Virus record (IMG/VR): IMGVR_UViG_3300038629_000237 | Location: 1 to 44,910 of that record | Direction: 5' to 3' (one strand) | Source of the DNA: a virus | Length of the DNA stretch: 44,910 nt | Shown: positions 2,545 through 23,075 of the stretch, piece after piece | How positions within the stretch are numbered: position 1 is the stretch's first letter | Layout: every line of letters starts with the position of its first letter | Position numbers and translations under genes: made by a program | The notes under the pieces: generated by a model | The model's input: the letters and a program-made list of their open reading frames with translations, nothing else | What the model was told of the DNA's origin: nothing | The model's database searches: none

Positions 2545-3146
2545 TGGCTGTCCAAGGTAATACGCTGACCGGAAGTGCACCGTCGCTTTCGATCCAAAAC
2601 AATGGCACTACTGACTTGGTTTTAACGCCGGGAACGACATGGCTAACAACTCCAAATACTAATGTAATGCCTGTCGAAGTAGGGCAGAACATGGAGACTC
2701 CGCTAAGTCGAAATGCGCTCAGAACGCTTATTACTATCACCAGTAAGCTCGAAGAATTTTTTGAGTACAAGTACCACCTACACCCAGTTGCAAATTCGTA
2801 TTCATCAAACTTGAGTTTTACCTGTGACATACGAAAAGCACAGTTCGTCGTGGATAGTTCTATCCCTGTGGAAGCGTCTTGGTCTGAACCTATTTTTGAG
2901 GACGTGAGAGGCGACATAAATGACGAGCCTAAGGCGTCTGAGTTAATTCAGGCAACCGCGAAAATAATTTACGGCGTCATGTGTTTTCGAAACATAGAAC
3001 CCTCCACAATGTATACCTCTCCCGTACGCGAACCGTTGAAAGATTCAACTCGTGCTTTTTTAATTGCCATAGCAAAAGGATTCGTGATCGAAGATGCCGA
3101 GGTGCCTGAAGAAGCACTAGGTAAGCTCGCACTTTTATCGTTTTGA
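2544..3146 (+). CDS. Hypothetical protein upstream of the large terminase (200 aa)
   Basis: The N-terminal 60 residues are Thr/Asn/Ser-rich and beta-like (a virion-protein style composition). The rest mixes strands and helices (ITSKLEEFFEYKYH, SELIQATAKIIYGVMCF). No known motif, signal peptide or clear membrane segment is visible. It is translationally coupled on both sides: ATG overlaps the previous stop, and its TGA overlaps the TTG start of the terminase. It may be a packaging accessory or minor virion protein, but I cannot assign it. Confidence 0.6.
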   Translation: MAVQGNTLTGSAPSLSIQNNGTTDLVLTPGTTWLTTPNTNVMPVEVGQNMETPLSRNALRTLITITSKLEEFFEYKYHLHPVANSYSSNLSFTCDIRKAQFVVDSSIPVEASWSEPIFEDVRGDINDEPKASELIQATAKIIYGVMCFRNIEPSTMYTSPVREPLKDSTRAFLIAIAKGFVIEDAEVPEEALGKLALLSF

Positions 3147-4567
3147 AAATTGCCTTTACTCCGACGCCAACGTGCAAAGATTTTATGCTCTCCGACAAGA
3201 GAGTACGTTTCCTTGTCGGTGCAGTTGGCTCGTCTAAAACAACAACGTGCCTTTATGAAATCCTCCGTCGAGCTGCCCAACAAGAACCGGCTTCGGATGG
3301 TATACGCTATACACGCTTTGCGATTATTCGGAATACGCTTGCGGCGATCAAGAGTACTGTGCTTAAGGATATTCAGCAGATTTTTGGTCCGATCATTGAT
3401 TACCGTGTCTCAGAATCCACGGTCTACATAAGAAAGGGAGACATACACTGTGAGATATTACTCATCCCTCTGGATACCCCCGACGATCAAAAACGACTAC
3501 TATCGTCACAGCTTACAGGGGCGTACTTTAACGAGTTTGTCGAAGTGGACCCTGTCTTCATCTCTGGCGCTCTTGGAAGGTGCGGAAGATACCCATCACA
3601 GCTCCGTGGTAAACCAACATGGTATGGAGTTTTCGCAGATTCAAACCCGGGCACAGAAGACAGTCCATATTTCCAGATCCTCAAGCTTGAGCTCCCTGAA
3701 ACATATGGATACTTTGAGCAACCCAGTCCCCTGCTTAGAGACCTCGACGGAAATATCAGTGAAAACCCTCTTGCGGAAAATATCAACAATCTCCCAGACG
3801 GTTTCGGATACTACTGGACGCTTTTAGATGGCGCTTCCTCAGAGTGGTCCGAGCGATTTGTATTTGGGCAATGGGGTGAATCTCTGCAGGGCCAAGCCGT
3901 TTTCAAAACTACGTTTTCGGCTGACTTTCATGTTGCGAAGTCTGAGCTCACTCCATCTTCTGGCCATGCACTCATTGTTGGAATGGATTTCGCGAGGGCT
4001 CCTGCAGCGCTTGTCATGCAGATCGATCACACAGGGCGTCTGCTCGTTTTGCAAGAAGTCTACGAAGAAAACATGGGCGTCGAAAAATTTGTTCGCGATC
4101 GGCTTATGCCAGTCATGTTTTCCCCGCGTTTTCAGGGTAAGCCGATGTACATCGTTGGCGACCCTTCGGGCCTACAGCGAAGTCAGATCGGAGAACGTTC
4201 AGTCTTCTCAATGATAAGGGGGATGGGTTTTGAAGCTGTACCTGCGCAAACGAATCATATCAAGCCTCGCCTCGACGCTGTTGAGAAATGGCTTCTTATG
4301 CAGCGCGAAGGAAAGGCAGCTATATTGTTTGACCCAGTCGGATGCCCTGAGCTCATTATTGCGCTCAAAAGCAAATACCGCTATCGTGCTCGCAAAGATG
4401 GAGAACTTGAAGATAAGCCTCATAAGATCAGGCCGTGGGCCGACCTTGCTGACGCGCTTCAATATGGCTGTCTTGGAACAGCTCAAAACCTCATGGGTAA
4501 AGTAATGCGGAGGATGCAACGATCCCGCGCTCCTCGTGAGGCATTGTCTTCTAACGCATGGACGTAA
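3143..4567 (+). CDS. terL: Terminase large subunit (ATPase-nuclease)
   Basis: This motor pumps phage DNA into the prohead and cuts the concatemer. The N-terminal ATPase has Walker A GAVGSSKT at residues 26-33 and Walker B LTGAYFNEF at 124-132 (catalytic E131). A coupling-motif candidate, DSNPG, is at 166-170. The C-terminal RNase H-like nuclease shows Asp282 in GMDF, Asp340 in VGDPSG, and Asp434/Asp437 in WADLADALQY. Length (474 aa) is normal and all catalytic residues are present. The start is a TTG overlapping the upstream TGA; an ATG at 3185 would shorten it by 14 residues but leave the Walker A motif only about 11 residues in, so I keep the TTG. Confidence 0.95.
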   Translation: MKIAFTPTPTCKDFMLSDKRVRFLVGAVGSSKTTTCLYEILRRAAQQEPASDGIRYTRFAIIRNTLAAIKSTVLKDIQQIFGPIIDYRVSESTVYIRKGDIHCEILLIPLDTPDDQKRLLSSQLTGAYFNEFVEVDPVFISGALGRCGRYPSQLRGKPTWYGVFADSNPGTEDSPYFQILKLELPETYGYFEQPSPLLRDLDGNISENPLAENINNLPDGFGYYWTLLDGASSEWSERFVFGQWGESLQGQAVFKTTFSADFHVAKSELTPSSGHALIVGMDFARAPAALVMQIDHTGRLLVLQEVYEENMGVEKFVRDRLMPVMFSPRFQGKPMYIVGDPSGLQRSQIGERSVFSMIRGMGFEAVPAQTNHIKPRLDAVEKWLLMQREGKAAILFDPVGCPELIIALKSKYRYRARKDGELEDKPHKIRPWADLADALQYGCLGTAQNLMGKVMRRMQRSRAPREALSSNAWT

Positions 4568-4568
4568 T

Positions 4569-5015
4569 ATGCTTATTGAACTCAACCGCTTCGCGTACCT
4601 TACCGATTGCACACGTGGGATTTTGAAAATTGGGACTAACTCGTTTCAGACTATCGAGCGGCCTTGGATCACCTTTCCTGATGGACCGGGTGGCACGCCG
4701 TTTGAATCTTGTATACCAGATGCTGAGTATCGCTTGCGTGCTTACACTCGTCCTTCCGGTAAGAAAGCTCTTATCCTATCGAATGAAGAACACGGAGTTT
4801 TTGAACAGGAGAGTGATAGACCTCATGCTCAGGGACGATATTTAATACTCATCCATCCCGGCAACACCGTTGACGATGTCGTAGGATGTATTGCTCCGGG
4901 GCTGACAGGTGGCGATCATTTCGTGAGTGACTCACGTAAGGCCATGTTGAAAATCCTTGAGCTCTTAGAAGGCTTTGAGCATACGATAAGGATCGGCCCC
5001 AAGCGGGCAGTGTAA
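4569..5015 (+). CDS. DUF5675-family protein, possible cell-wall enzyme
   Basis: The 148-residue product has the DUF5675 pattern: TIERPW at 28-33, SCIPDAEYRL at 47-56, and a signature around IHPGN...GCIAPG at 95-111 followed by SRKA. The family has no settled function that I know of. The His96-Pro-Gly and Gly-Cys107 spacing loosely recalls the H-x-G and S-x-GC elements of YkuD L,D-transpeptidases, so peptidoglycan activity is possible but unproven. ATG 4569 begins 1 base after the terminase stop. Its stop TAA abuts, with no gap, the stop of the convergent reverse-strand operon. Confidence 0.7.
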   Translation: MLIELNRFAYLTDCTRGILKIGTNSFQTIERPWITFPDGPGGTPFESCIPDAEYRLRAYTRPSGKKALILSNEEHGVFEQESDRPHAQGRYLILIHPGNTVDDVVGCIAPGLTGGDHFVSDSRKAMLKILELLEGFEHTIRIGPKRAV

Positions 5016-6200
5016 TCACTTAAGCGACAAGAATTTTGTCACTGTTAAGAGTTTCTTGGTTATCCAGCTACCAACAGCAGTCGCCTTCCAAGAATCAACG
5101 TCCGTATCCCACACCTGATTAGTGATTAAAGCGTCAGTGTTGACTGTACTGCCAGCAGACAGGTCTTCGAAGTTACAGCTACCACGAACTGAGATAACAC
5201 CATCAGTGTTCGTAGCGTCTAACTGGAGCCGCCCCATAGCCATTGAGACAGTCACTTCATCGGCAACGTTATCGGTACCAGCGAGTATTAACCCTTCTTT
5301 CCAACCGCTGATGCTTACTGCGCAACCGCCGCCCCCTACATCTATTGTTGGCCTGCCAAGCCCCGCAACAAGTGAATAACAGTCATTCAATTTTGTAATT
5401 GCTGCAGCTCGCAATGTAGTTGAGCCAGAAAACCCACAACCAATAAGCTCACCAGCCAATCCTGATGTACCATTAAGGATGTGGCAATGGTGATAGTGGT
5501 TATCAAACGAACCTCCAATAGCACCATCAACCGATACATCGTGCAGTTCGCACTTTTCAAGAATTTCACCTGCAACATCGATTGTTGGATTGCCAACACC
5601 ACGTATGTTGAAACTCTTTATTTGTCGATCGACTGTTGCATCGGCCAGTAACACTAACGACAAAAGTCCATTTGTCTCAGCGTCATCAACAGCATCGGTC
5701 CAGTTGTTGTAAGGCGTTTGCTGGTAGCCGTCGCCGTTCGTAAGTGCGGACGTGTCGATCCAGATCTCACGCTCCACTTGACCATGAATATTTTCAATCT
5801 GGTTAGATTGCTCAGCAGACAGCCCTGAACCAGTTTCTATTTTGCCACCGGAGTTGTTTGCCAATATGCTTATACCGTTTGCTGCAATGAATGTATCCAG
5901 AAAGTTGTTGTTTTTACCTAACAACGAAACAATAATATTACTGCTATCAACTTCCCAAGTGTAACCATTGATCAGCTTTACGATTGCCGAGTACGATAGA
6001 CCAGACAGTACTTGAGTGTTAACAAACTCAAGTGCTTGTTCGGCATACAAACCTCCATTGTTTGCAGCCGAGGCTTCTAAGCGGCGAATTTCAATCCAGA
6101 AATCATCCGCATCAAGCGTATAGTTAACACCAGAGACAAAGGTCAAATCCCCTACGGGAATCGTAAATACCTTTGTAGTCCAGTTTGGTGTGTACGACAT
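5016..6200 (-). CDS. Phage structural/fibre protein with beta-solenoid-like region
   Basis: Last gene of the reverse-strand operon (394 aa). The N-terminal domain (FTIPVGDLTFVSGVNYTLDADDF, then a KLINGYTWEV step and a LLGKNNN step, residues about 12-95) is a pattern common in phage tail-associated proteins. The region from about residue 145 has IWIDTSALTNGDGYQQTPYNNW, then short repeating strand rungs (CELHDVSVDGAIGG, CHILNGTSGLAG, CGFSGSTTL), as in right-handed beta helices. A C-terminal VSIRG-type rung and amphipathic tail follow. AGGGA lies immediately before ATG 6200, 3 bases from the previous stop. Likely a virion fibre or tail-tip protein; exact position unknown. Confidence 0.6.
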   Translation of the reverse strand: MSYTPNWTTKVFTIPVGDLTFVSGVNYTLDADDFWIEIRRLEASAANNGGLYAEQALEFVNTQVLSGLSYSAIVKLINGYTWEVDSSNIIVSLLGKNNNFLDTFIAANGISILANNSGGKIETGSGLSAEQSNQIENIHGQVEREIWIDTSALTNGDGYQQTPYNNWTDAVDDAETNGLLSLVLLADATVDRQIKSFNIRGVGNPTIDVAGEILEKCELHDVSVDGAIGGSFDNHYHHCHILNGTSGLAGELIGCGFSGSTTLRAAAITKLNDCYSLVAGLGRPTIDVGGGGCAVSISGWKEGLILAGTDNVADEVTVSMAMGRLQLDATNTDGVISVRGSCNFEDLSAGSTVNTDALITNQVWDTDVDSWKATAVGSWITKKLLTVTKFLSLK

Positions 6201-6203
6201 TCC

Positions 6204-7979
6204 CTAGCTCTCATTATCAAGCGTCACTATCAAAGACTGAGAGTTAGAACCCACTGCGTTGTAAGCAATGGCAACAGGTTTGTCCGGTATCGTCGGATCA
6301 CCATGCCTTACCCAACCAACAAAGTCCCGTGTGCCAGCATCAAACACAAAGCTCCGTGACAAAGTTTGGACTGCGCCCGTGCCATCTAGCGGCTCGTAGA
6401 AGTAGGCGATGAACATATTGTCGCCGGCAGTAATGGCAATTGCATCAGTCGTACCGACAAGGGTAAACGTAGAAGCTGTCCACGATGAGTACTCATAGAA
6501 CGTGAAGTACGTTCGACCCGTATGCAGTACTCCGACGTAACCAGTCTGCGGCTCATCAGCTTGAATTGCAGCATCCACAATTATGACACTGACACTTACA
6601 CCCTGAGCTGTACCATCGTAGGTGTTGTAGTCTGGAGCTTCGAGGCCAGTATCTTTCTCGGCAAGGAAGCAGTACGGATCATCCGACACATCACAGTTGA
6701 CCGTGAGACTGAGCGTAACATTCTGCGGTACGCTTGGAGTCTGACCGTCAAGAGCCGTAACCGAATCACCGAAGATTAACTCTGTTGCCTCGAAGCCAGT
6801 ACCCTTCGGTGCGATCCAGTTGGAACCCGTGTACACACCGATATAGTTCGCAGCAGTCGCCAGCTTTTCAGTTGCCGTTACTACGTTGTCGGCTCCGTTC
6901 GTAGTACCTGTAACCGTATCGGTATTAACTGGTGCGACACCCTTGTTCAGATGGATCACCATGCGAGTGATATTATCTTCATCAAGATCGTCAGCGGCCA
7001 TCATCACGCCTTCGCCACCACCCGCCCAAGTTACGATTTCATTCTGGACGTAAAGTTGTGAGCCAGCACCCGGCGTTAGCGTTAGCTGGAAAAGCCTTGC
7101 GGTATATAGATCACCGTCAATTCCCCAGAGGGTGTCACTCGTACCCCGAACAAGATACGCTTTAATGACTTCGTACAATGCGTCCTTAGTCTGGTTGCCA
7201 GTCAACCCACTGTAAGACAAGGTTCCGATAAACGGATCGGCTCCATTGCCATCAACGTCAATGAGATCGTAGCCCTCCACTGTTGCCCCGACTCCTGCAA
7301 AGCCCGTATAAGCCTGTACTGTTCCAATAGCGGTGTTATTGTTCGGGTCATCAGCCGTCGAAATTGCCGCTACCTTCTCGCCCAAGCCTAGTGTGGTTTC
7401 CCATACGGCATAGGAATCATTAAACTCAGAGGCTTTAACAACAACAATCTGCTGGTCAACATCTGCACCAGCTACGATTGTCTTAACCAAGACACGATTC
7501 AAGGTGTTGCTGTCTGTCTGGTTCAGACCTGTACCCCAAAAGGAAGTATAAACTGCAGCATCCTGAATGATCTGTAGTTCAGTCCCCGCTACAGCAGAGC
7601 CAAGTACGATCAAACCAGAATAGCGCTCAGTTTGAGATGAACCGTTTGTTTGCTCAATAGACCCACCGAAATGAGTCTCCGCTACTGTGTCAGTGATGTT
7701 GTACCGCACTGTGTAATCAGTCGTGTGATCCAGCAGTGTGATAATCGTACCAAGAGCCTCAGAAGTACTCGGGTTAGGTTTCGCTAAGTTGAGCAAGTCA
7801 TTACCCGAAGTAGCTAAATCCCAGACCTTTTTCTGCAACGCTCGATGTAGCCACCAAACATGAAAGGTATCTGTACCCGTGTCGTGCGTAATGCTGCCAT
7901 CGGCTGCGATTGCATACTGCGCTAACCAAGCCGTGACCGCATCTGCGGGTGTTGCATAATCTCTGTCATAGACAGTCAT
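6204..7979 (-). CDS. Fibre-like structural protein (591 aa)
   Basis: Beta-rich, low in Lys, high in Thr, Gly, Asp and Val, which is typical of phage fibres and surface proteins. The N-terminus (YATPADAVTAWLAQYAIAADG) is helical. The central region is rich in TLSYSGLTGNQT and VTLSLTVN type strands. The C-terminal 80 residues (SRSFVFDAGTRDFVGWVRHG, ending in IVTLDNES) share the VGW-R motif with the next reverse-strand protein, suggesting a common terminal module. AGAGGA precedes ATG 7979 by about 9 bases, and the gap to the upstream stop is 14 bases. Function is inferred from composition and neighbours only. Confidence 0.6.
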   Translation of the reverse strand: MTVYDRDYATPADAVTAWLAQYAIAADGSITHDTGTDTFHVWWLHRALQKKVWDLATSGNDLLNLAKPNPSTSEALGTIITLLDHTTDYTVRYNITDTVAETHFGGSIEQTNGSSQTERYSGLIVLGSAVAGTELQIIQDAAVYTSFWGTGLNQTDSNTLNRVLVKTIVAGADVDQQIVVVKASEFNDSYAVWETTLGLGEKVAAISTADDPNNNTAIGTVQAYTGFAGVGATVEGYDLIDVDGNGADPFIGTLSYSGLTGNQTKDALYEVIKAYLVRGTSDTLWGIDGDLYTARLFQLTLTPGAGSQLYVQNEIVTWAGGGEGVMMAADDLDEDNITRMVIHLNKGVAPVNTDTVTGTTNGADNVVTATEKLATAANYIGVYTGSNWIAPKGTGFEATELIFGDSVTALDGQTPSVPQNVTLSLTVNCDVSDDPYCFLAEKDTGLEAPDYNTYDGTAQGVSVSVIIVDAAIQADEPQTGYVGVLHTGRTYFTFYEYSSWTASTFTLVGTTDAIAITAGDNMFIAYFYEPLDGTGAVQTLSRSFVFDAGTRDFVGWVRHGDPTIPDKPVAIAYNAVGSNSQSLIVTLDNES

Positions 7980-7993
7980 CTTAACGTCCTCTG

Positions 7994-9622
7994 TTATTCA
8001 GCAGGTTCGAGCCTGATAGTTATGAAAAATCCGTTTATTGTGTATTCACCTGAAAAGTCTTGCTGTGTGTAATCTGTTCCGATCATGTCATGTTCTCGCG
8101 CCCACCCAACAACATCAGTATCCGCATCATAGGGTATTGAAGTTGAAAGGACGCCACTGCCGTTTACTGCACCAGTCATCAAAACGCTCTTGTCCGAGTC
8201 TTTTAATAGATGAACCTTCGCCGTTGTAAGAGGCGTGTCATCAGTAGCATCCAGAACAGTTACTTCTAATGTAATGGTATCGAACACTAGAGTAACCGCG
8301 ATACCAGCTGCATCGTCTTTGAAAAAGTTTGCAGCTGTGGCAGGTACTCCATCAACAGTACAACCGGTAACGCTACAAGTTAGTGAGCCTCCTGTCGCAA
8401 GGAATCGCAGAGCTGCACCGGGTTGGTCTTCACCAGCGGTATCATCGAACCCATTGAACGCAATGTTGGTCAGTGAAATGTCATCGTCGACACCTGTACC
8501 AAAGTCTATTGCGTGATGGTCATTCGTACCTTGAACAAATGTGCAGCCGCTCAACTCAATGATAGGAGTTGTCGCTGTCGTCGTGCGATCATCGAATACC
8601 GCACCTGTATCAGCCGCTACTGTTGATGTCAGGATACTTGACCCTGAGATGTCAGCTTCACCGAGGATGATCTGATTGCAGCTTGTCCATGTAGAATTAG
8701 TACACTCTCCAGTAGAGGCAAAGGTGGTGGTGTCAAATCCATTGAACTGACACAGCAAGCCAGTGAAGGTGCCAACGTCTAGCGTCAGCAGGGACGGAGT
8801 ATTCGTACCTAAGTGACTGATGATGATATTCGTCCACTCGACGTTGGACGATGCGTTCTCTATTACGAACTCATTGAATCCAGCCGGCAGAAACAAGTCA
8901 TCGAGTACGTTGATAACTCTGTCTGAGTCACGGAAGTCTACTGCCGTGCCGCTCTGTCCCATGACGAATGCGCCGTGGAACAAGTAACCTTCCAGCGATG
9001 GGGTAAGTATGCCCCATGCCGAGGATGAATCATCCGCTGATGCGCCGAGGAACGTCCCGTAGGCCGCTGCCTGTCCGTCAATGATCCGTAGTTCTCGGCC
9101 ATGCCTCGCAACGTCTATACCATTCGGGTTGCCCTTTAGTGCTCCTGAGCCAAGAATCTTCCACGCGCCACCAACGTAGTCTGTCGTCGTGGGAGTGCCT
9201 TGAGTATTAGAAGCTGTTTGCGTAGGATCAACTGCATAGTTACGCCAACCGGCTAAGTCAGAACCGGGGGAGTCATCTCCGTCCACATAGAACTGGTCGT
9301 AATCTGAAAGGCCATCGCCAATAAGAACCTGCGTCCCGCCAGCCGCAATCGTATCCATCAGGTTGCGGTTGTTCTGCTTGAGCCAAACAAAGACAGCATC
9401 ACCAGCAGTAATCGTTACAGTGCCTCCAACGTCCTGCATGATGCCTTTTGTATCAGCAGTCCAGCCAGCTTTGGAGATGCACTGAAGGCCCTCGATGAAG
9501 TAATCTGTTTCATCCGCCAAACCAGCACCACCGGCCCCTGTGATGTTTACATGACCATAGTTCGCGACATCCTCTGCATCTTCGATTAGTGCGAGATCAG
9601 TAGCATAAGTCGCAACAGCCAT
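7994..9622 (-). CDS. Beta-solenoid-like structural/fibre protein (542 aa)
   Basis: Residues about 250-430 contain rung-like segments (VEWTNIIISHLG, SLLTLDVGTFTGLLCQFNGF, CNQIILGEADISGSSIL, IIELSGCTFVQGT) expected for a parallel beta-helix spike or fibre. A C-terminal Ig/carboxypeptidase-regulatory-like segment (VTVLDATDDTPLTTAKVHLL) ends in a VVGWAREHD motif shared with the neighbouring 591-residue protein. Its ATG overlaps the upstream stop (TGATG), so it is translationally coupled. Likely a virion appendage; adhesion or depolymerase activity cannot be read from sequence. Confidence 0.6.
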   Translation of the reverse strand: MAVATYATDLALIEDAEDVANYGHVNITGAGGAGLADETDYFIEGLQCISKAGWTADTKGIMQDVGGTVTITAGDAVFVWLKQNNRNLMDTIAAGGTQVLIGDGLSDYDQFYVDGDDSPGSDLAGWRNYAVDPTQTASNTQGTPTTTDYVGGAWKILGSGALKGNPNGIDVARHGRELRIIDGQAAAYGTFLGASADDSSSAWGILTPSLEGYLFHGAFVMGQSGTAVDFRDSDRVINVLDDLFLPAGFNEFVIENASSNVEWTNIIISHLGTNTPSLLTLDVGTFTGLLCQFNGFDTTTFASTGECTNSTWTSCNQIILGEADISGSSILTSTVAADTGAVFDDRTTTATTPIIELSGCTFVQGTNDHHAIDFGTGVDDDISLTNIAFNGFDDTAGEDQPGAALRFLATGGSLTCSVTGCTVDGVPATAANFFKDDAAGIAVTLVFDTITLEVTVLDATDDTPLTTAKVHLLKDSDKSVLMTGAVNGSGVLSTSIPYDADTDVVGWAREHDMIGTDYTQQDFSGEYTINGFFITIRLEPAE

Positions 9623-10077
9623 CAGCTATAACTCAACGCGAGGTGGTTGTCCCAGATGTTGTCCCGATTGCTATTGCCATCGGCCCATGTAGTTGCGGCG
9701 TCAGTATTACCACCGCCATCTACTGTAAAAACAATCTTCTTGATGCTCCACGTAGCAGTACTGGTAACTGTACCGGGGAGAGCGTCACCGATATACAGCG
9801 TATCGCCGTCGTCTTGTTCATCTACTTGCTGAGCGTTTTTCATCTTTTCCACCCCGAAGTCAGTTCGTAACCAAGAACCGGGGGTAGCGTCTGTTGGCTT
9901 GATAACATCAACTGCGTCATCAGAAGCGGCATTAGTGTCATCGAAAACAAACCAACCCTCCTCCGTGCCAACCAGCACTGATGCTAAGTCGTTGTGAATT
10001 GGAACTTCGAGAGCTCGCAATTCTGAATATGTTCGTGCGCGTAGTGTCGCTGAACGCTGTGCACGTTGTATGCCCAC
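9622..10077 (-). CDS. Small virion-associated protein (151 aa)
   Basis: Starts with GTG at 10077, overlapping the TAG of the upstream gene (TAGTG). The N-terminal half (SELRALEVPIHNDLASVLVG, then GWFVFDDTNAASDDAVDVIKP and GSWLRTDFG) matches a segment often seen at the start of phage tail spikes and fibres, where a W-x-R-x-F strand closes a small head domain. The C-terminal half is beta-like with an Asn/Asp-rich end. It may be a connector or head domain used by the following fibre genes. This is inference from pattern. Confidence 0.55.
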   Translation of the reverse strand: MGIQRAQRSATLRARTYSELRALEVPIHNDLASVLVGTEEGWFVFDDTNAASDDAVDVIKPTDATPGSWLRTDFGVEKMKNAQQVDEQDDGDTLYIGDALPGTVTSTATWSIKKIVFTVDGGGNTDAATTWADGNSNRDNIWDNHLALSYS

Positions 10078-10496
10078 TACTCAACTTCCTGCCTACATGA
10101 CTTGCGTATCATCCGCGCAGCTTGACTGTGAATCCAAGTGTTGTCACCGGGATGTATTTTTTTCATGCGGGATTCAAGGAATTTAGTTGGGATGAGTTCA
10201 CCACCGTCGGGGCGGCTAACCTCCCTTGCGAACAGGACAACTGGTATGTGCGTATGACCGAGATGTTTCATAGCCCAAACTCTATTATTCCCCATTGCAA
10301 CTTTTAAGCGGCGTCCGTGTTCAACGATAATTGGATTGGTTAAACCCTTCTTTTCGATGCTGGAAACCAACTTCAAAAACATTTTTGCGCTCATGCCACC
10401 AGTCTTAACGCCGTCTCTTTCAGGGACGTCGAAGGCGTCAAGGGTGTCGATAGGCAGGCTCTCATAGTAGTAAGCTTTGTAGCCGAGCCATCGCAT
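10077..10496 (-). CDS. ParB/sulfiredoxin-like nuclease-fold protein
   Basis: First gene of the reverse-strand operon (139 aa). Residues 46-88 read SSIEKKGLTNPIIVEHG, then LKVAMGNNRVWAMKHLGHTHIPVVL. This is the ParB N-terminal layout: 'I...GL..PI.V', a strand, the G-x-x-R box (G69-N-N-R72) and 'A...LG...IPVV'. There is no centromere-binding helix-turn-helix or dimerisation domain, so it is a stand-alone domain as often found in phages, where roles range from DNA nuclease or CTPase to unknown. AAGGG lies about 10 bases upstream of ATG 10496. A ParB-like gene leading an operon of fibre-type proteins is unexpected. Confidence 0.6.
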   Translation of the reverse strand: MRWLGYKAYYYESLPIDTLDAFDVPERDGVKTGGMSAKMFLKLVSSIEKKGLTNPIIVEHGRRLKVAMGNNRVWAMKHLGHTHIPVVLFAREVSRPDGGELIPTKFLESRMKKIHPGDNTWIHSQAARMIRKSCRQEVE

Positions 10497-10520
10497 GTCG
10501 TCAAACCCTTGTCATTACTG

Positions 10521-10549
10521 TTGACACGAGCTTGTTTATAAACGATATT
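10521..10549 (+). promoter_or_regulatory. Candidate sigma70-type promoter for the portal-led operon
   Basis: TTGACA at 10521-10526 is a perfect -35 match. Seventeen bases later, GATATT (10544-10549) matches four of six -10 positions. It lies in the only divergent intergenic region of the window, between the reverse-strand operon and the portal gene. A start site near 10556 would leave a short leader before ATG 10581. It is a sequence match only. Confidence 0.4.
10534..10543. promoter_or_regulatory. Perfect 10-bp palindrome in the divergent region
   Basis: GTTTATAAAC is a perfect inverted repeat located within the spacer of the candidate forward promoter. It provides a TATAAA-like element on both strands. 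It could be a small operator or contribute a -10-like element to a reverse promoter for the ParB-led operon. Short palindromes arise by chance, so confidence is low. Confidence 0.3.
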
Positions 10550-10580
10550 GCCCGTGGTAGCAACACACTACGGACAACTC

Positions 10581-12620
10581 ATGGCCGGCGTTTTACAGGT
10601 AGTATCACCTCAACAGCTCTCCGATTATGAAGCAGCGCAAGCTGTCGGAGAAGAAACAGTCGACCAATCCCTTGAGAACGAAGGGGTCGTTGCTATTGTC
10701 CGCCGTGAATTCCATGATTCGCGCAACGCCCGATACGTCAACGGTATTTCCCAGCGGCTCATCGAAGCCCAGCGCACTTATCGCGGGGAGTATTCCCCCA
10801 ACAAACTGCGTGACATCAAGTCCTTCGGGGGTTCCGAAGTGTACTCACGTGTTACCCCCACTAAATGTAGAGGTGCTACCAGTGTCCTCAGGGACTTGTA
10901 TCTCAGTGGAACCGAGCCCCCGTGGGAGCTCTTACCAACGCCAGTACCGACGTTGCCAGAAGATATACAGGAAGCTGTGGCTGGGCTGGTTCAGACTGAA
11001 GTCCAAGCAATGCAGGGGCAGGGGAGCTCCATTACTGATGAGATGGTCCGCGATCGTATGGAGCAACTCATGGGGTCGGCTCAGTTAGCGGCTATCCGGA
11101 CGGCCCTTGACGAAGCGAAGCAGTCAAGTCGAGAGCTCAATGATGTGATGATTGAGGGTGGATTTTACCAAGCGCTCAAAGAATTCCTTATTGACCTACC
11201 GATTTTCCCCGTTGCGTGTATCAAAGGACCTGTCGTTAGACAAAAAACAAAGGTCCGATGGGTTAACGGGGTAGCGACTCAAGAGACAACGCCCAAGCTA
11301 TTCTGGGACCGTGTCAGCCCGATGGACCTGTACTTTACTCCTGATGCTTCTAGCATGGATGAGACGTATGTCATTGAACACGTTAGGTATTCTCGACAAG
11401 AGCTGTATAATCTTATTGGTGTTCCGGGATACGACGAAGACGCTATTCGATCTCTTCTCAAGGACTTCAAAGACAAGACACAGACACGTTCTTGGCGAGA
11501 TTGGTTTGACGAGGAGAGGGAAGTCCTTGAGGACAGGGATCATTGGGAGTCCTCCCGTGGCCAGCTGATTGACGCTCTTGAGTGGCATGGTTGCATACAG
11601 GGACAGATGCTGCTGGATCATGGGTTTGGAGAGGACGAGATTGATGACCCAGAACAAGAGTACTTCGTTGATGCGTGGATTGTTGACAGGTACGCGATCA
11701 AAGTTCAAATCGCTCCGGGCCTCACGCAGCGGCCGAAATACTACCTTTCGAGCTTCGAAAAGATCCCCGGCTCCCTCTGGGGCTATGGACTACCGGACAT
11801 CCTTGCGGATATCACTTCTGTCTGCAACTCGACAATGCGAAGTATTGTTAATAATCTGTCTATCAGTTCTGGCCCGCAAGTTGTCGTTAACCTCGATCGA
11901 CTGGCGGATACGGAGGATGGTAACTCCCTCTACCCGTGGAAACGATGGCATGTAGTTGACGACCCGCTTGGTAACAACAGGGATGACCCTGTCACCTTCT
12001 ACCAGCCACAGTCTAATGTGCAGGAACTCATGGCTGTGTATGAGAAGTTCAGCCAAATGGCCGATGAAGCCTCCGCTCTCCCCAAGTACTTGACAGGAAG
12101 TGGGGCAACAGGTGGTGCCGGCAGGACCGCCTCGGGGCTTGCCATGTTGATGGATAACGCATCAAAGGTGATGCAGAACGTCGCTGCTAACGTGGATGAT
12201 GACGTCCTCACACCATTGATTGAAAGCCTTTACGAGATGGTCATGCTTAGTGACGCAGGGCCACGTCTTAAAGGCGATGAAACAATTGTTGTCAAGGGTG
12301 TGACAGTAGCGGTCCAGAAGGAAACGGATCGTATGCGCAAGCTTGAATTCCTCCAGATGACAGCCAACGAGATTGATATGGGCATCATTGGTCCGGAAGG
12401 ACGAGCCGCTGTACTGGAAGATGTTGCCGAAGAACTTGGTATGGATGGTAAAAAGATAGTACCATCTCCTGAAGAACGTGGCAGTATGCCTCCGGGACCT
12501 CCACCTCCGGGTGGGACACCGGGTGGTCCGCAAGCGGCGCAAGCACCATCAGCCGGCCGTGACCCCGCTATGCAGGCGAGGGAAGGGCAGGAAAATGTAA
12601 CTAGAGGAGTAGCGCAATGA
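10581..12620 (+). CDS. Portal protein
   Basis: The portal is the dodecameric ring through which DNA enters and leaves the head. At about 680 residues it is within the range of podovirus portals. Early landmarks are a charged helical N-terminus, then KLRDIKSFGGSEVYSRVTPTK and DLYLSGTEPPWEL. Position GRTASGLAMLMDNASK near residue 514 resembles the conserved portal crown/stem region, followed by a helical barrel and a Pro/Gly-rich tail (PPGPPPPGGTPGG). ATG 10581 is my choice because it lies just after the candidate promoter; the frame is open from TTG 10548 and GTG 10554, neither with a good binding site. The stop overlaps the next ATG. Confidence 0.88.
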   Translation: MAGVLQVVSPQQLSDYEAAQAVGEETVDQSLENEGVVAIVRREFHDSRNARYVNGISQRLIEAQRTYRGEYSPNKLRDIKSFGGSEVYSRVTPTKCRGATSVLRDLYLSGTEPPWELLPTPVPTLPEDIQEAVAGLVQTEVQAMQGQGSSITDEMVRDRMEQLMGSAQLAAIRTALDEAKQSSRELNDVMIEGGFYQALKEFLIDLPIFPVACIKGPVVRQKTKVRWVNGVATQETTPKLFWDRVSPMDLYFTPDASSMDETYVIEHVRYSRQELYNLIGVPGYDEDAIRSLLKDFKDKTQTRSWRDWFDEEREVLEDRDHWESSRGQLIDALEWHGCIQGQMLLDHGFGEDEIDDPEQEYFVDAWIVDRYAIKVQIAPGLTQRPKYYLSSFEKIPGSLWGYGLPDILADITSVCNSTMRSIVNNLSISSGPQVVVNLDRLADTEDGNSLYPWKRWHVVDDPLGNNRDDPVTFYQPQSNVQELMAVYEKFSQMADEASALPKYLTGSGATGGAGRTASGLAMLMDNASKVMQNVAANVDDDVLTPLIESLYEMVMLSDAGPRLKGDETIVVKGVTVAVQKETDRMRKLEFLQMTANEIDMGIIGPEGRAAVLEDVAEELGMDGKKIVPSPEERGSMPPGPPPPGGTPGGPQAAQAPSAGRDPAMQAREGQENVTRGVAQ

Positions 12621-17565: not shown

Positions 17566-17873
17566 CGTTACTTGATCGATTTCTTAAACAACCAGATGAG
17601 ATCAAGAAGTACCAGATTGATTACTCGGAGTGGCTCGCTGATGGCGAAACAGTTACTTCTGTGTCTACTGTTGTGACTCTCTTGAACCCTGCCGCTACTG
17701 ATGTTGGTGAGCCCACTCTTACAGTAGGTACCACCGCTATCAATGACGACATCTATGATTACTTTCTCAGTCTTGGTACGGACGCGAAACGTTACAAGAT
17801 CACGTTCCTTGCTGATACCTCTGATTCACAGCGGGTGGAAAGCGAGATTGAATTTAAGGTGAATGACAAATGA
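17562..17873 (+). CDS. Small beta-sandwich (Ig-like) virion protein (103 aa)
   Basis: The sequence alternates strands: KKYQIDYSEWLADGETVTSVSTVV, then TLTVGTTAINDDIYDYFLSLG and RYKITFLADTSDSQRVESEIEFKV. This is a recurrent small phage domain ('DYS-WL-DG-TI') found before tail/fibre genes, probably acting as a head-tail or fibre attachment module. It is coupled at both ends by 4-base ATGA overlaps. Confidence 0.65.
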   Translation: MTLLDRFLKQPDEIKKYQIDYSEWLADGETVTSVSTVVTLLNPAATDVGEPTLTVGTTAINDDIYDYFLSLGTDAKRYKITFLADTSDSQRVESEIEFKVNDK

Positions 17874-18862
17874 CTCAGCTATTTACAAACAATGCTTCTG
17901 GTACGTTATTTGTGCAGGCTGAGATTGTTGACCTCACTCTCACCTTACAGACTAACGAAGGGCAGTTATTCCCTGCTCCCACGGGCGCAGATTTTTTCAT
18001 GTGCAGTATGGAGGACACCTCCGGCAACCTTGAGATTGTGCAGTGTACTGATAATACTGCTGACGTCCTGACTGTCGTACGTGCACAGGAGAGCACCACT
18101 GCACTGGTTTTCCCAACAGGTTCGCGAGTAGAGTTGCGTACCACAGCCGGCACGTTCGGGGAATTCATTCAACAGTCTGGCGACCAGATGGCTGGCGAGC
18201 TGGATATGAATGGCAACGTGCTTCGCGACCCACTCATTACAGATGGTGAAGCGCGTAACCTACCATTACGTGGTACTGATGGCGGCACTGCGAACGAGAT
18301 AGTCGTGCCGACAGCGGCGGGGGCACCAACACTTGGCGGCAACACCATCCTCCATACAGGCAACACGTCTGCTTACGTACAAGACCCACGGGAGGTTAAT
18401 ACTGGTGAAGGCATAACCGGCGGCGGCGACCTATCCACGAACCGGACGCACGATCTTGACATGCCCGGTTTGAATACGATGGATGCATCTACACTGGCTA
18501 ACGACGACGGGATGCTTGTTTACGACGCCGACGCTGCAGAGCATAAGGTGATAACAAATGAGAAGGGGGGCACTCGTATCGTTGCAGTGACGTCGACCCG
18601 CGACTTCGCTTTGACTGACAGCAACGCTTTCTTACATTGCGATGCGACTGACAGAACACTGACTCTCGTTGATTCAATTTTTCATATAGGCACGGAGATT
18701 GCTCTCGGATGCCCCGGGGCTGGCAGTATTACTGTTGCGGTGGGTGGAGCCCAGTCGATTACTTCCTTAGCGAGCGACCTCGATATAAAACCTAATGGTG
18801 GCGGGGCGTACCTCGTACAGTACGCAGCAAATACATGGCTGCTAGTGGGGGACCTTCAGTAA
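17870..18862 (+). CDS. Fibre-like protein with shared N-terminal attachment module (330 aa)
   Basis: Residues about 4-101 (LFTNNASGTLFV to GTFGEFIQ) form a module that recurs in the 202-residue protein starting at 19275, including the 'P-P--G--F' and 'LTVVRAQ' landmarks. Residues 102-190 resemble fibre shafts (ELDMNGNVLRDPLI, NTILHTGNTSAYV, GEGITGGGDLSTNRTHDL). The C-terminal end is a small beta domain ending YLVQYAANTWLLVGDL, a pattern seen in many tail fibres. Likely a short tail or neck fibre. Confidence 0.65.
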   Translation: MTQLFTNNASGTLFVQAEIVDLTLTLQTNEGQLFPAPTGADFFMCSMEDTSGNLEIVQCTDNTADVLTVVRAQESTTALVFPTGSRVELRTTAGTFGEFIQQSGDQMAGELDMNGNVLRDPLITDGEARNLPLRGTDGGTANEIVVPTAAGAPTLGGNTILHTGNTSAYVQDPREVNTGEGITGGGDLSTNRTHDLDMPGLNTMDASTLANDDGMLVYDADAAEHKVITNEKGGTRIVAVTSTRDFALTDSNAFLHCDATDRTLTLVDSIFHIGTEIALGCPGAGSITVAVGGAQSITSLASDLDIKPNGGGAYLVQYAANTWLLVGDLQ

Positions 18863-19275
18863 TGTTTTCTAAGAAGCGCTTCATTGGTGGTGGTGGCCGA
18901 GGGGTTGATAACGTCACCTTCGTTGGCGGATCGAAATCATCTGGTAGCCCCGGCGTATTCACCATCTCCGCTAACGGAAACCATAGTAACCTCACAGTAC
19001 AGGGCAGCAAGTGGGAGACCGCCAACAATCCCAATCCTGTCGACACGTACCACATCAAGTACGAAAATCATGACACACTGGCTCAATTTCCTACAACGCC
19101 GTTTGTTATAAGTACGTGGACGCAGCTCACTGGTGCTGGACCGTTTACTTGGTCGTTCACAGTGTCGCCTCCTAATATATCAACTCGCGGCGCAAAGCTA
19201 TTTATATCAAACGACGGCGGGTCTACGACGTTAGCAAGCGCTGACTTTTCAGTAACAGCGGACGAGACTCCATAA
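18862..19275 (+). CDS. Hypothetical beta-rich structural protein (137 aa)
   Basis: ATG 18862 overlaps the upstream TAA. After a Gly-rich start (FIGGGGRGVDNVTFVGG), the sequence reads as alternating strands rich in Ser, Thr and Asn (GVFTISANGNHSNLTVQG, FTWSFTVSPPNIS). It lies between two proteins sharing an attachment module, so a fibre or decoration role is plausible. No family recognised. Confidence 0.6.
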   Translation: MFSKKRFIGGGGRGVDNVTFVGGSKSSGSPGVFTISANGNHSNLTVQGSKWETANNPNPVDTYHIKYENHDTLAQFPTTPFVISTWTQLTGAGPFTWSFTVSPPNISTRGAKLFISNDGGSTTLASADFSVTADETP

Positions 19276-19883
19276 TGGCTTTAGTCTTATTTGAAAACAA
19301 TGCCAATGCGACCTTATCGGTAAACATAGACAATATTGTTACGTCGATAACGGTTTCGGCTGGGCAGGGTAGTAACTTCCCCAGCCCCGGCGCAGGTGAG
19401 ATTTTCTACATTACGTTGCAGAACTATGCAGCGCAGCTCGTTGAGATATGTCAGGTAACAGACCGGACAGGCGACACGTTTACTGTTGTGCGTGGGCAGG
19501 ATGGAACGACAGCACTCTCATGGACGGTAGCGGATACAGCTATCCAACTTCGTCTTACTAAAGAGACGTTGGATAGGTTTATTCAGGTGAGTGCTACAGC
19601 AGCACCGCCGGCAGGATCGATATTGACGTTGGATAGTCAGGGGCAGCTTATAGAACGGCTTGGCTCTTTGCTTACCGGCATAACGTACGAATCATATACA
19701 GCAACTGAAGGACAGGACGTCTTCAATACTACTGTTGATTTACCAGTGATCGCGACGGGAATTCTTCTCACCATAAATGGAGTGAAGCAATACCCGCCCG
19801 CTAATTTTACACGGACAGGGCTTAATCAGATAACGATTGATGAGACGCTGGCCGTTGGTGACCAATTAGTAATAGGAGCTTGA
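19275..19883 (+). CDS. Fibre-like protein, paralogue of the 330-aa protein's N-terminus (202 aa)
   Basis: Residues 5-104 (LFENNANATLSV ... GDTFTVVRGQDGTTAL ... ETLDRFIQ) match the N-terminal module of the protein starting at 17870 position by position. The remainder (SYTATEGQDVFNTTV, LLTINGVKQYPPANFT, and LVIGA at the end) is a common C-terminal phage fibre tip module. Stop-start overlap with the upstream gene. Probably a virion fibre or fibre adaptor. Confidence 0.62.
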   Translation: MALVLFENNANATLSVNIDNIVTSITVSAGQGSNFPSPGAGEIFYITLQNYAAQLVEICQVTDRTGDTFTVVRGQDGTTALSWTVADTAIQLRLTKETLDRFIQVSATAAPPAGSILTLDSQGQLIERLGSLLTGITYESYTATEGQDVFNTTVDLPVIATGILLTINGVKQYPPANFTRTGLNQITIDETLAVGDQLVIGA

Positions 19884-19884
19884 T

Positions 19885-20037
19885 ATGTTGACTTTGAATA
19901 ATCCCCTCGTGCTGGTATCAGCAAAACTGCTTGGCGTAGGTGTAGAGCTGAGAGTGGAACACGTTGATGACGTGTGGCATCTCTGCTTGGACATAGAGGC
20001 CATCGCATGGAGCTACTGTAAGGCATGGGGGAAGTAG
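19885..20037 (+). CDS. Very small hypothetical protein (50 aa)
   Basis: ATG 19885 follows AGGAG at 19874 with good spacing, and starts one base after the upstream stop. The product (MLTLNNPLVLVSAKLLGVGVELRVEH, ending AWSYCKAWGK) has a short hydrophobic N-terminal half but no convincing membrane span, and two cysteines. It directly precedes the holin gene, so a lysis-associated function is possible but unsupported. Confidence 0.5.
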   Translation: MLTLNNPLVLVSAKLLGVGVELRVEHVDDVWHLCLDIEAIAWSYCKAWGK

Positions 20038-20038
20038 A

Positions 20039-20491
20039 ATGGCCATCCCAATATTGGGTGCCTTGTGGGAGAAGATTGTCGACAAGGGCGGCTCGATTAT
20101 ATCCGAGCTCGTTACTGACAAAGACCTTGCCAAGAGGCTTGAGCATGAGTTCCGTTCACAGATGGAAGGGAACGCTGCTGAGTTCAAGAAGATGGAGCTC
20201 GAAACTGAGACCCGTATTTTTGAAGCGCAGGCGAAAACCATCCAAGCTGAGCTGCATCAAAACGACCAGTACACAAAACGTACTCGACCGAGCATTGCTC
20301 GGAAATCATTCTACGCCGGCCTTGCTTATGCATTGCTTACCTCTTTACCAGAGCTTGGGGTAGACCTTAAATACATTGTCATCATGCCGTGGCAGTTTCA
20401 GTGGTCAGTGTTGATGTTGTTGTATTCCCCTGCACTTACATACATGGGTGTACGCGGCGCTGAAAAATGGAAGAGTGGTGGGGCAGTATGA
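20039..20491 (+). CDS. Holin (3TM/GTA-holin-like)
   Basis: Residues 1-80 form a charged amphipathic region (LAKRLEHEFRSQMEG, ETRIFEAQAKTIQAELHQN). A conserved-looking basic turn RTRPSIARK follows at 81-89. Membrane segments then occur at about 90-108 (SFYAGLAYALLTSLPELGV) and 119-138 (QFQWSVLMLLYSPALTYMGV). This is the layout of the holin family used for lysis or gene-transfer-agent release. Holins form inner-membrane lesions that time lysis. It starts 1 base after the upstream stop and overlaps the next gene by ATGA. Confidence 0.75.
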   Translation: MAIPILGALWEKIVDKGGSIISELVTDKDLAKRLEHEFRSQMEGNAAEFKKMELETETRIFEAQAKTIQAELHQNDQYTKRTRPSIARKSFYAGLAYALLTSLPELGVDLKYIVIMPWQFQWSVLMLLYSPALTYMGVRGAEKWKSGGAV

Positions 20492-20862
20492 GTGTTAAAA
20501 CAAAGATTCAGGAGAATCCTATGGTTAGCTCAGTGACAGGGTTTTTGCTAATTGTGGGGCTGGTCATGGGCACTATAAAAGCCGTCGACGATATCGATGG
20601 TCTTGTCATGACGGAGGTTGAAGCATCGGAAGCTCATGAAACAATCGATGGCCGTATTGATACCCTTGAAGTAGGGTTCTCAACGGAAGCCGCACTCAGC
20701 AAATGCAGGTGGTTATCAGACAAGATAGATCGTATCCGGTACGAGGTTTATACCTTGGAGAAAGATGGAGCGAGTCCTGATTTCATTCAATCGAAAGAAA
20801 GAGAGCTACGCAATGTAGAGAGAGATTTTAACGCTCTTGGTTGCGCAGCAATTTTAGCATAG
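20488..20862 (+). CDS. Membrane-anchored coiled-coil protein, possible spanin/accessory lysis protein
   Basis: ATG 20488 overlaps the holin stop. One N-terminal membrane segment lies at about 13-31 (VSSVTGFLLIVGLVMGTIK). A helical periplasmic-type domain follows (IDGRIDTLEVGF, WLSDKIDRIRYEVYTLEKDG, KERELRNVERDF) with cysteines at 73 and 119. This resembles an inner-membrane spanin (Rz-like), but no lipoprotein partner is visible and coiled-coil content alone is not diagnostic. A second holin-like role is possible. Confidence 0.5.
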   Translation: MSVKTKIQENPMVSSVTGFLLIVGLVMGTIKAVDDIDGLVMTEVEASEAHETIDGRIDTLEVGFSTEAALSKCRWLSDKIDRIRYEVYTLEKDGASPDFIQSKERELRNVERDFNALGCAAILA

Positions 20863-20871
20863 GAGAAGGAT

Positions 20872-21231
20872 GTGAGAGCTAGTCAATTACATAAGTTAAA
20901 CACACATGGTGAGAACTCAGCGGGGCAGGTAGCGCCGAGTGTCAAGTCATTAACCCAGCACGGCACTGATACTGTTAGCGCAGTTATCATCGTCAGTGGC
21001 TTCGGTAACATCGGGGACAACCTCGATGCCACTACTGATATTGGCGGCGGCAATGTCGTGAGTCAGTACACCGTTGTCGGGGCCAGAGAAGACCCCAACA
21101 CAATGGCTACTGGTCTTGCCTTGGATATCAACGGGCAGACTGACCACACTGCAGTAGCTGCAGAGAACCTCGTACAGATCGTGAAGACGACTGCAGGCAC
21201 CGTGGAAGTAGTTAGTACTGGCATCAGCTAA
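20872..21231 (+). CDS. Small beta-rich structural protein (119 aa)
   Basis: Starts with GTG at 20872; the ATG two bases earlier is immediately followed by a stop, and AGGAGAAGGA at 20861-20870 is a strong binding site. The product is Thr/Val/Gly-rich with alternating strands (DTVSAVIIVSGFGN, GGNVVSQYTVVGA, VQIVKTTAGTVEVVSTG). Likely a minor tail/neck protein from context; TAATG coupling to the next gene. Confidence 0.6.
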   Translation: MRASQLHKLNTHGENSAGQVAPSVKSLTQHGTDTVSAVIIVSGFGNIGDNLDATTDIGGGNVVSQYTVVGAREDPNTMATGLALDINGQTDHTAVAAENLVQIVKTTAGTVEVVSTGIS

Positions 21232-23075
21232 TGCTGATTAACCTGCAGCAGTTTGCAGGGCTGGTTCCGAAGGTATCTGATCGACAGTTGCCAGCGAACT
21301 ACGCAGCGCAAGCGGACAACACCCAGCTTTACTCTGGGGAGGTTCGAGGCTTACGTGAGCCTGAAACAGTTGCAGATTTATCTGCAGAAATTTTCACTGT
21401 ACGCAGAGCTTACCGTCTCGAAGACGGGGCTACTTCCATTGCCGATACATTAGGGGATTGGGTTCCTTTTGATGAGGCAGAGGTAAACTTCATAAGAGGG
21501 GCCTTAGTCAATGACCAGTTCGACAGATACTATGCGGCAGGTGGCACACTTGATCCAGTGGTGGATACAGCAGTTAATTGGGCTGCTGGGGGCGGTGGTA
21601 TTGACCTTGGCGTTCCCGCTCCTACTACCCCTCCTACTGTAGTCCCACCCGCTTCAGGCACAGTCGATGAGACTCGTGCATATGTTTACACTTTCGTCAA
21701 TGAGTGGGGGGAAGAATCTGCTCCTTCTCCAGCATCAGACCCCGCCACTGGTGATGTAACGTTAACGTGGGTGTTGTCTGCTATGCAGATAGCTTACCCA
21801 GTAGCGGGCAACCACAATGCTATTGATAAAACTCGAATCTACAGGACCGTCACTGGTACAAGCTCTGTTAACTATAGGTTCGTCGCTGAAGTTGATCCTC
21901 CAAACGCTGGTTACAACGACGATCAATCAAATGACACTGTTTCTCTTAACGAGTCTTTGTCTAGCCTTGGTTGGGACCTGCCTCCTGCTGGGTTACAAGG
22001 CATCGTTAATATGGCGAACGGAATCATGGCTGGCTTTGTGGGCAGGGATTTATATTTTTGTGAACCTTATCGCCCTCATGCTTGGCCTGCTAACTATATT
22101 ATCTCTACAGAAAATAATGTTGTAGGTATAGGAGTTTATCAGTCAGGCATTGTTGTATGTACTACTTCTAATCCCTACGTAGCAACTGGTTCACATCCAT
22201 CCAGTATCACGTTGACTAAGTTGGATGATGTTGAACCTTGCCAATCATTCAGGAGCATCGTTAACGGGTTGAATGGCGTTGTCTATGCTTCTCAAAACGG
22301 ATTGGTTCTTGTTAACCAAACAGGCGCACAAAACATAACCTCTCCTTTGATGACTCGTAATGAGTGGCGAGATGGCTACTCCCCCGAGACAACGGTAGCT
22401 GCTGCTGACGGTTCCCGCACGTTGGCATTCACCTCCCTCAGTAGTGGCTACCTTTTTAATCCAGTAGAGCAACTCGGCTATCTGGTAAACCTTACCGGGT
22501 TTGCTGACATAACCGCTGTGCAAACAGATCAGTTCACGGGTGAGGCTTACATCATAGCGAGAGACGTAGTCTTTTTGTGGAACCCCACAACTACTGTCCC
22601 ATTGTCATACGTATGGAAGTCAAAAGTATTTGAACTTCCATTCCCTGTGAATATGGGTGCATACCGACTTCAGTATGAAGACGTAGTATCTGATCCTGAT
22701 CTAGTCCCGGGGTTTGACTACACCAACTACAACGCCAGTCGAATTACTCTGCCGTTGGATACATTAAATTTACAACCTCTTAATGGGGTAAGAACCGAAA
22801 CAGGCATGACTGACTCTCCTCCTGTTGTACAAAATCGTAACCCGATCGGTGGTAGTCCACTACAACCACTGGAGCCTCTCACTGTTCGAGACAACATACG
22901 TATTCGAATTTGGGGGGATGGGGTTCTTCGTTATGACGAACAAATTATGAGTCAGCAAATGCAGCGCTTACCCAGTGGGTATAAGGCTGATAAATGGCAG
23001 ATCGAATTCACCAGTGCGCAGAACATCTATTCATTCAAGATGGCTGGCACCGGTAAGGAACTAGCGAAGGCATAA
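21231..23075 (+). CDS. Large tail/neck structural protein (614 aa)
   Basis: The start (INLQQFAGLVPKVSDRQLP, then AAQADNTQLYSGEVRGL) matches a widespread phage protein class ('NL-QF-G--P----R-LP---A--A-N--L-SGEL-P') found in podoviruses next to tail genes. A fibronectin-like strand block (ETRAYVYTFVNEWGEESAPSPAS) lies near residue 150. A propeller-like middle (GLNGVVYASQNGLVLVN) follows, and the C-terminus has IRIWGDGVLRYDEQIMS. Probably a tail or head-stabilisation component; exact site unknown. Normal length for this class. Confidence 0.7.
   Translation: MLINLQQFAGLVPKVSDRQLPANYAAQADNTQLYSGEVRGLREPETVADLSAEIFTVRRAYRLEDGATSIADTLGDWVPFDEAEVNFIRGALVNDQFDRYYAAGGTLDPVVDTAVNWAAGGGGIDLGVPAPTTPPTVVPPASGTVDETRAYVYTFVNEWGEESAPSPASDPATGDVTLTWVLSAMQIAYPVAGNHNAIDKTRIYRTVTGTSSVNYRFVAEVDPPNAGYNDDQSNDTVSLNESLSSLGWDLPPAGLQGIVNMANGIMAGFVGRDLYFCEPYRPHAWPANYIISTENNVVGIGVYQSGIVVCTTSNPYVATGSHPSSITLTKLDDVEPCQSFRSIVNGLNGVVYASQNGLVLVNQTGAQNITSPLMTRNEWRDGYSPETTVAAADGSRTLAFTSLSSGYLFNPVEQLGYLVNLTGFADITAVQTDQFTGEAYIIARDVVFLWNPTTTVPLSYVWKSKVFELPFPVNMGAYRLQYEDVVSDPDLVPGFDYTNYNASRITLPLDTLNLQPLNGVRTETGMTDSPPVVQNRNPIGGSPLQPLEPLTVRDNIRIRIWGDGVLRYDEQIMSQQMQRLPSGYKADKWQIEFTSAQNIYSFKMAGTGKELAKA

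Follow-up and report, generated by a model that had tools for sequence, protein, structure and literature searches.

A reversed five-gene block between terminase and portal in an uncultivated virus: a probable exchangeable virion-appendage cassette in a fixed slot

Exchange of fibre modules between phages is, in general, already known. The receptor-binding protein (RBP) and tail-fibre modules of Klebsiella phages are adhesin-like genes exchanged between otherwise vertically inherited genomes, with a conserved base or adaptor part and variable ends (PMC8262889), and cobaviruses carry a variable fibre region behind the terminase (PMC6775973). The long fibres of phage SU10 (Kuravirus) are trimers of two proteins, proximal and distal, seated on an adaptor (PMC9509320). 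Immunoglobulin (Ig)-like and collagen-like building blocks also occur in the capsid decoration proteins T5 pb10, T4 Hoc (Ig-like) and SPP1 gp12, which has a collagen-like motif (PMC5292684). In bacteria, opposing polymerases cannot bind simultaneously at bidirectional (pseudo-symmetric) promoters and compete at high activity (PMC12825309). Here we describe a block of five reverse-strand genes lying between the terL and portal genes of IMG/VR virus record IMGVR_UViG_3300038629_000237, of which the 44,910 bases analysed are called the window. Four of the genes, designated D, A, B and C, probably encode the subunits of a multi-protein fibre, and the block as a whole is likely to be an exchangeable virion-appendage cassette.

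Compared with the RBP and fibre modules, which it resembles in both respects named above, the block is a four-gene set without a detectable cultured homologue, is reversed relative to all of its neighbours, and lies in a slot with a candidate bidirectional promoter and a ParB-like gene at its head. The window has an SU10-type portal (Pfam SU10_portal); PHROG and Pfam family scans linked the block proteins to no known fibre family. The capsid decoration proteins share the Ig-like and collagen-like building blocks, but are single proteins, whereas the block is a four-gene set that includes a beta-helix protein. The candidate promoter has the overlapping, opposed sigma70-type elements of its bacterial counterparts, which could not be occupied together; unlike them, it is found in a phage, joins packaging and virion genes to a fibre cassette, is invariant over 31–34 bp, and has a separate -10 element in each direction. 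The nearest cultured portals are those of Rhizobium phage RHph_TM3_14A (45% identity) and of HMO-2011-type phages (26%). These phages have homologous portals and the same order of packaging and head genes as the window; terL is also opposite to the portal in TM3_14A, and in HMO-2011 the two genes are adjacent and co-directional. The D-A-B-C block was not detected in either. New here are a fixed slot in reverse orientation, an apparently bidirectional element that does not vary, a module missing from the cultured phages that were searched, and the occurrence of that module across body plans.

An earlier note on this DNA had reported five tightly coupled reverse genes between terL/DUF5675 and the portal. 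All five open reading frames (ORFs) were confirmed at these positions (Table 1) and encode conserved proteins; since all have same-order homologues in independent contigs, the block is not a chance arrangement. The ParB-like gene and D, and likewise D and A, overlap by 1 nt, while gaps of 14 nt and 3 nt separate A from B and B from C. The stop codons of the DUF5675 gene and gene C do abut without a gap at 5015/5016, as had been observed, and overlap by 4–8 nt in relatives; no intrinsic terminator was found at these convergent stops. The true portal start, 10581, is residue 12 of an ORF listed from 10548 and is conserved in relatives; given this start, the divergent gap between the ParB-like and portal genes measures 84 bp.

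The position of the block is constant among close relatives. The clade includes the window and seven other distinct genomes (IMG/VR contigs) with portals about 80% identical to that of the window, and forms a single group in the portal tree (support 100/100). In all four genomes spanning the junction (the window, L003, L004/L033 and L006/L037) terL and the DUF5675 gene run forward, genes C through D and the ParB-like gene are reversed, and the portal is again forward, so that DUF5675 is kept as the border throughout. The reversed ParB-like-D start is also present on the portal side in L032, L034 and L110; the contig of L111 begins just inside the divergent gap. Presence or absence of the block against forward-only relatives had been proposed as a test. 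Distant forward-only relatives in which terL adjoins the portal and the block is lacking do exist (e.g. L124, L135, L204, L207 and L210), but no close relative without the reverse block was found among the clade contigs recovered.

The genes within the slot have a different history from those around it. Within the clade, identity to the window is 80–82% for the portal, 79–82% for the major capsid protein (MCP) and 74–82% for D, compared with 28–85% for A, 33–35% for B and, where detected, 34–37% for C (B of L034 shows 58% identity, over a 109 amino acid fragment only). L009 and L026 have portals merely 48–49% identical to that of the window, yet their B proteins are 87–89% and their A proteins 68–72% identical, B of L009 standing at 89% beside a portal at 48%. 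L018 has an unrelated portal (phrog_1216) and no shared core, yet its B is 89% identical to that of the window. Gene order alternates between D-A-B-C and D-B-A-C. The A tree rejects the clade as one group (approximately unbiased (AU) test, p 3.7e-41), pairing the window with L110 inside a set of other phages and placing L003 beside L013 and L197, a contig from a metagenome-assembled genome (MAG); some rows are partial or long-branched and the details are rough, but the rejection is large. Payload alleles are thus discordant with the core genes, both by identity and in the comparison of portal and A trees. That B and the reordered B are merely paralogues was rejected, since A, in both orders, shows equal discordance.

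Whole-payload replacement was found in L246 and L247, which were recovered by an IMG/VR pattern scan for the promoter element described below. They are the closest core relatives of the window (portal 90–91%, MCP 91% identity) and retain the ParB-like gene at 87% identity; downstream of it, in place of D-A-B-C, are genes for a 146 amino acid phrog_644 protein, a 117 amino acid protein, and a third of at least 231 amino acids, whose repeated 'DAPLTL..G' segments are Ig-repeat-like. Both contigs end in the replacement payload, so that the genes beyond are not visible. Homologues of the 146 amino acid protein lie behind a tail-adaptor-like gene (phrog_437 family) or the portal in other portal-family phages, and adjoin the D C-terminal domain in L079/L081. 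Sequence comparison therefore supports well the view that position and strand of the slot stay constant while the payload is swapped, also with unrelated phages. The comparison of the region across relatives that the earlier note had called for accordingly yielded both allele swapping and payload replacement, in agreement with its proposal of a swappable appendage module.

Protein A gave a good AlphaFold2 model, with a predicted local distance difference test score (pLDDT) of 86, in which a beta-helix spans residues ~205–440 and the Ig domain residues ~445–540; the domain names are our reading of the strand pattern and the structural matches. With Foldseek, the top PDB match of the C-terminal domain was a CnaB2 domain (E 8e-4), followed by pilin and transthyretin-type domains. 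The helix region weakly matched tailspikes, including those of Sf6 and Dettilon, and the whole length matched a 505 amino acid viral protein of unknown function (template modelling scores 0.76/0.81). Profile cross-matches show that A and B have the C-terminal domain in common. In C, the N-terminal ~120 residues are conserved and the C-terminal part varies in length (135 to 713 amino acids in homologues). The 'WADGNSNRDNIWDN..LSYS' domain of D was found at ~65 phage loci, some of which have collagen-like repeats ahead of it; the D homologues of L066, L088 and L038 have such repeats, which match tail-fibre PHROGs. PDB sequence searches returned nothing credible. Fibre-type architecture (beta-helix, Ig-like, collagen-like) is therefore seen in the A model with its Foldseek matches and in the D homologues, and is not established for B and C; of the four beta-rich proteins previously claimed, this bears out A only. 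Taken together, the A fold, the domain shared by A and B, the variability of C, and the collagen-like D homologues support a multi-subunit fibre.

The same set of genes is found elsewhere. D/A/B/C sets, co-directional with packaging genes throughout, follow the portal in L009, L014, L018 and L026, head genes in L020, L022 and L024, and terL in L192; they precede terL in L193 and L197, and one belongs to L066 (relatives L068 and L106), a phage that has a tail sheath. One or other of the two orders (D-A-B-C, D-B-A-C) recurs among podo-, myo- and other phages, the reversed orientation only in the window's clade. Given these varied positions and the occurrence in L066, the module crosses phage body plans. 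A tblastn search with A, B, C, D and the relatives' alleles found no A–D homologue in 50,697 cultured-phage records, and a 20-kb megablast against cultured phages gave no match. A scan of genome contigs gave no match with B and one with A, the MAG contig L197 (JAQYVZ010000022.1). This contig, binned as a Desulfuromonadales MAG, has a phrog_1216 portal, and its D-B-A-C set lies immediately upstream of terL; the contig is probably of phage origin and, because it has its own terminase and portal, is a weak host hint at most.

From this evidence we infer assembly into the virion, host-surface binding, use of sigma70, timing and the roles of the individual subunits. D would be a stalk or adaptor, A and B would be Ig-capped stalk or adhesin subunits, and C, whose base is conserved and whose end is exchangeable, would be distal or accessory. 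The reversed cassette sits in a fixed slot, which ends at the DUF5675 stop on the left and, towards the portal, at the ParB-like gene and a probable bidirectional promoter common to both operons. Through recombination, fibre genes of unrelated phages probably take the place of those in the slot, the promoter and the packaging genes on either side being inherited vertically. From the overlapping promoters, host RNA polymerase would read the portal operon to the right and the block to the left, both late and in competition with each other.

Several points tell against the fibre cassette. The B model (pLDDT 49) was too poor to interpret, so that its fold search was discarded and no usable model is at hand; the block proteins showed no known type of virion anchor domain; and, with no A–D homologue in the cultured-phage records, no member of the module is experimentally known. 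The window also has, at 17870–30777, a forward fibre-like set (tail-fibre PHROGs, Laminin_G_3 and a 1670 amino acid protein), so that a second appendage system must be assumed; the phage seems to have two, the forward set and the reverse block.

Attachment of the fibre to the tail and to the head were both considered. Head (capsid) fibres or decoration proteins, Ig-like and collagen-like, placed on the capsid or neck and aiding surface adhesion, are an alternative that we consider the less probable. In several phages the module follows the portal immediately or lies amid head genes, whatever the tail type (L009, L014, L018, L020, L022, L024, L066), and the decoration proteins of T5, T4 and SPP1 cited above use the same elements. 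However, receptor-binding appendages more typically show a beta-helix like that of A and exchange at the clade level; tail-fibre families are matched by the collagen-like D homologues; and the homologues of the phrog_644 replacement gene of L247 are found just behind a tail-adaptor-like gene in portal-family relatives.

The promoter evidence comes from the divergent gap, where 34 consecutive columns, TACTGTTGACACGAGCTTGTTTATAAACGATATT, are identical in seven genomes; the next longest run in the 2721 aligned columns is 15, the portal genes being 74–88% identical. With L111 and L246/L247 added (ten rows), 31 bp are still invariant. Across all of IMG/VR, the 34-bp element was found only in the window's clade (12 contigs). 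A candidate promoter for the portal operon (PR) and an opposed candidate for the reverse block (PL) overlap almost completely, and their -35/-10 pairs, each with 17-bp spacing, lie within one RNA polymerase footprint. The PL hexamers are invariant in all ten rows; PL uses an invariant TAGCAA eight bases past the 34-bp stretch, which could alternatively be part of the portal transcript start. A general promoter scan of the region was no richer than shuffles, so the argument rests on conservation rather than on the match. No second copy of the element was found in the window; it is therefore not a repeated phage-specific late promoter there.

In outgroup L113, TTGACA-N18-GATATT is found at the same place and the palindrome GTTTATAAAC is absent. 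In this sister-group contig (2–1699) a small-terminase-like gene, short membrane-type proteins and an M15-like peptidase are reversed before the portal, the lysis-type genes and the peptidase having been identified by eye. The earlier description of the flanking genes as all forward holds locally; in many wider relatives, terL and/or the small-terminase-like gene is opposite to the portal at the junction. These opposed genes indicate an old origin of divergent transcription at the portal, under which an appendage cassette appears to have been placed in this clade. The block and the portal operon probably have one bidirectional promoter in common, and we infer that block expression is coupled, competing and probably late. 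Own control, which the earlier note had suggested, is retained in the form of a candidate leftward promoter, but this overlaps the portal promoter in the 34-bp element, so that the control region would be shared with late virion genes; expression at a different time from the late genes is unsupported, the shared element suggesting coupled or competing expression instead. A different motif, about TATACTGTATTTA, recurs in the portal divergent gap of many distant relatives (L123, L151, L153, L156, L164 and L165); it may represent an operator or a further bidirectional promoter.

We consider it rather unlikely that the 34-bp block is instead a packaging signal (cos/pac) or a promoter-unrelated DNA-binding site, with the block transcribed from elsewhere. 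The element does lie between terL and the portal, contains a palindrome, is present once in the window, and is conserved far beyond the need of a promoter, down to an invariant 17-bp spacer. Against this stand a 10/12 sigma70 match at optimal spacing with an opposed 9/12 match whose hexamers are both invariant, and the retention of the PR-like pair in L113; nor was a consistent contig end seen at the element, the ends not having been studied systematically.

That the block consists of early host-takeover or defence-related genes with their own promoter, situated by chance in the late region, was considered and set aside as very improbable. The reverse strand would fit, as would a candidate promoter of its own and a first gene that is ParB-like and not expected to have a structural role, but the large beta-helix/Ig proteins and the collagen-like homologues are structural in type, the same genes lie inside structural operons in other phages, and the block promoter candidate overlaps that of the portal. 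Ordinary fast vertical evolution of the payload, for which the general speed of surface-protein evolution and the moderate variability of D within the clade (74–91%) might speak, is hardly credible, being already contradicted by identities to unrelated phages that exceed those to core relatives, by the differing A-B/B-A order, by the AU test, and by the unrelated genes of L246/L247.

The block thus looks like a standing means of changing what the virus sticks to, and offers a clean natural case in which position, strand and promoter are fixed while the appendage payload is replaced. Its four payload genes would also make up an appendage module found across phage body plans, though with no detectable homologue in the cultured-phage collection searched. 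Sharing of one bidirectional promoter by the portal/capsid and surface-protein operons, if true, would tie fibre number to head number.

The first gene had been called ParB-like in the earlier note. Several ParB PHROGs do match it (E 1e-5), whereas Pfam ParB_N is below threshold (E 4e-5, 24.0 bits against a cut-off of 26.3). The ParB models match only residues ~38–90 of 139, and the Pfam and PHROG scans reported no helix-turn-helix (HTH) match behind this N-terminal domain. At 139 amino acids and with no HTH match, the protein was not filed as a partition protein. As noted, the gene is kept where the D-A-B-C payload is replaced. Speculatively, and with considerable doubt, the protein may regulate the shared promoter via the GTTTATAAAC palindrome, or act in the exchange itself; on this view its gene and the invariant bidirectional element would form a fixed unit for docking and control, at which whole appendage sets of unrelated phages are recombined in again and again.

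Table 1. Features of the reverse block, its borders and the divergent gap in the window
Feature	Positions	Strand	Size or match	Remarks
terL, large terminase	3143..4567	+	phrog_2 E 5e-22; 84–88% identity in close relatives	left-hand context
DUF5675 gene	4569..5015	+	Pfam DUF5675 E 3e-18	left border; stop abuts gene C stop
Gene C	5016..6200	-	394 aa	last gene of block
Gene B	6204..7979	-	591 aa	C-terminal domain common to A; horizontally exchanged
Gene A	7994..9622	-	542 aa	N-terminal beta-sandwich, beta-helix, C-terminal CnaB/transthyretin-like Ig domain
Gene D	9622..10077	-	151 aa	C-terminal 'WADGNSNRDNIWDN..LSYS' domain
ParB-like (ParB/Srx fold) gene	10077..10496	-	139 aa	promoter-proximal
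Invariant block TACTGTTGACACGAGCTTGTTTATAAACGATATT	10516..10549		34 bp	in divergent gap
Candidate PR	10521..10549	+	TTGACA-N17-GATATT, 10 of 12	for portal operon
Palindrome GTTTATAAAC	10534..10543		perfect, inside element	possible operator or symmetric -10
Candidate PL	10535..10563	-	TTGCTA-N17-TATAAA, 9 of 12, read from sequence	for reverse block
Portal	10581..12620	+	SU10_portal E 2e-15; phrog_332 E 3e-54	right-hand context

Three other genes of the window were also noted. At 1407–1880 is a gene for a 157 amino acid protein of phrog_36773, a family of unknown function, and homologues of this gene lie beside terL or the portal in ~70 loci, in many cases running in reverse immediately ahead of the portal; it is likely to be a small terminase. 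Near the end of the late region a forward ORF of 2492 amino acids (34361–41839) has no strong Pfam match, and its position suggests a giant internal or ejected virion protein. Converging on it from the reverse strand is the gene for a 922 amino acid protein (41802–44570) with a DUF927 match, which is likely to be replication-related.

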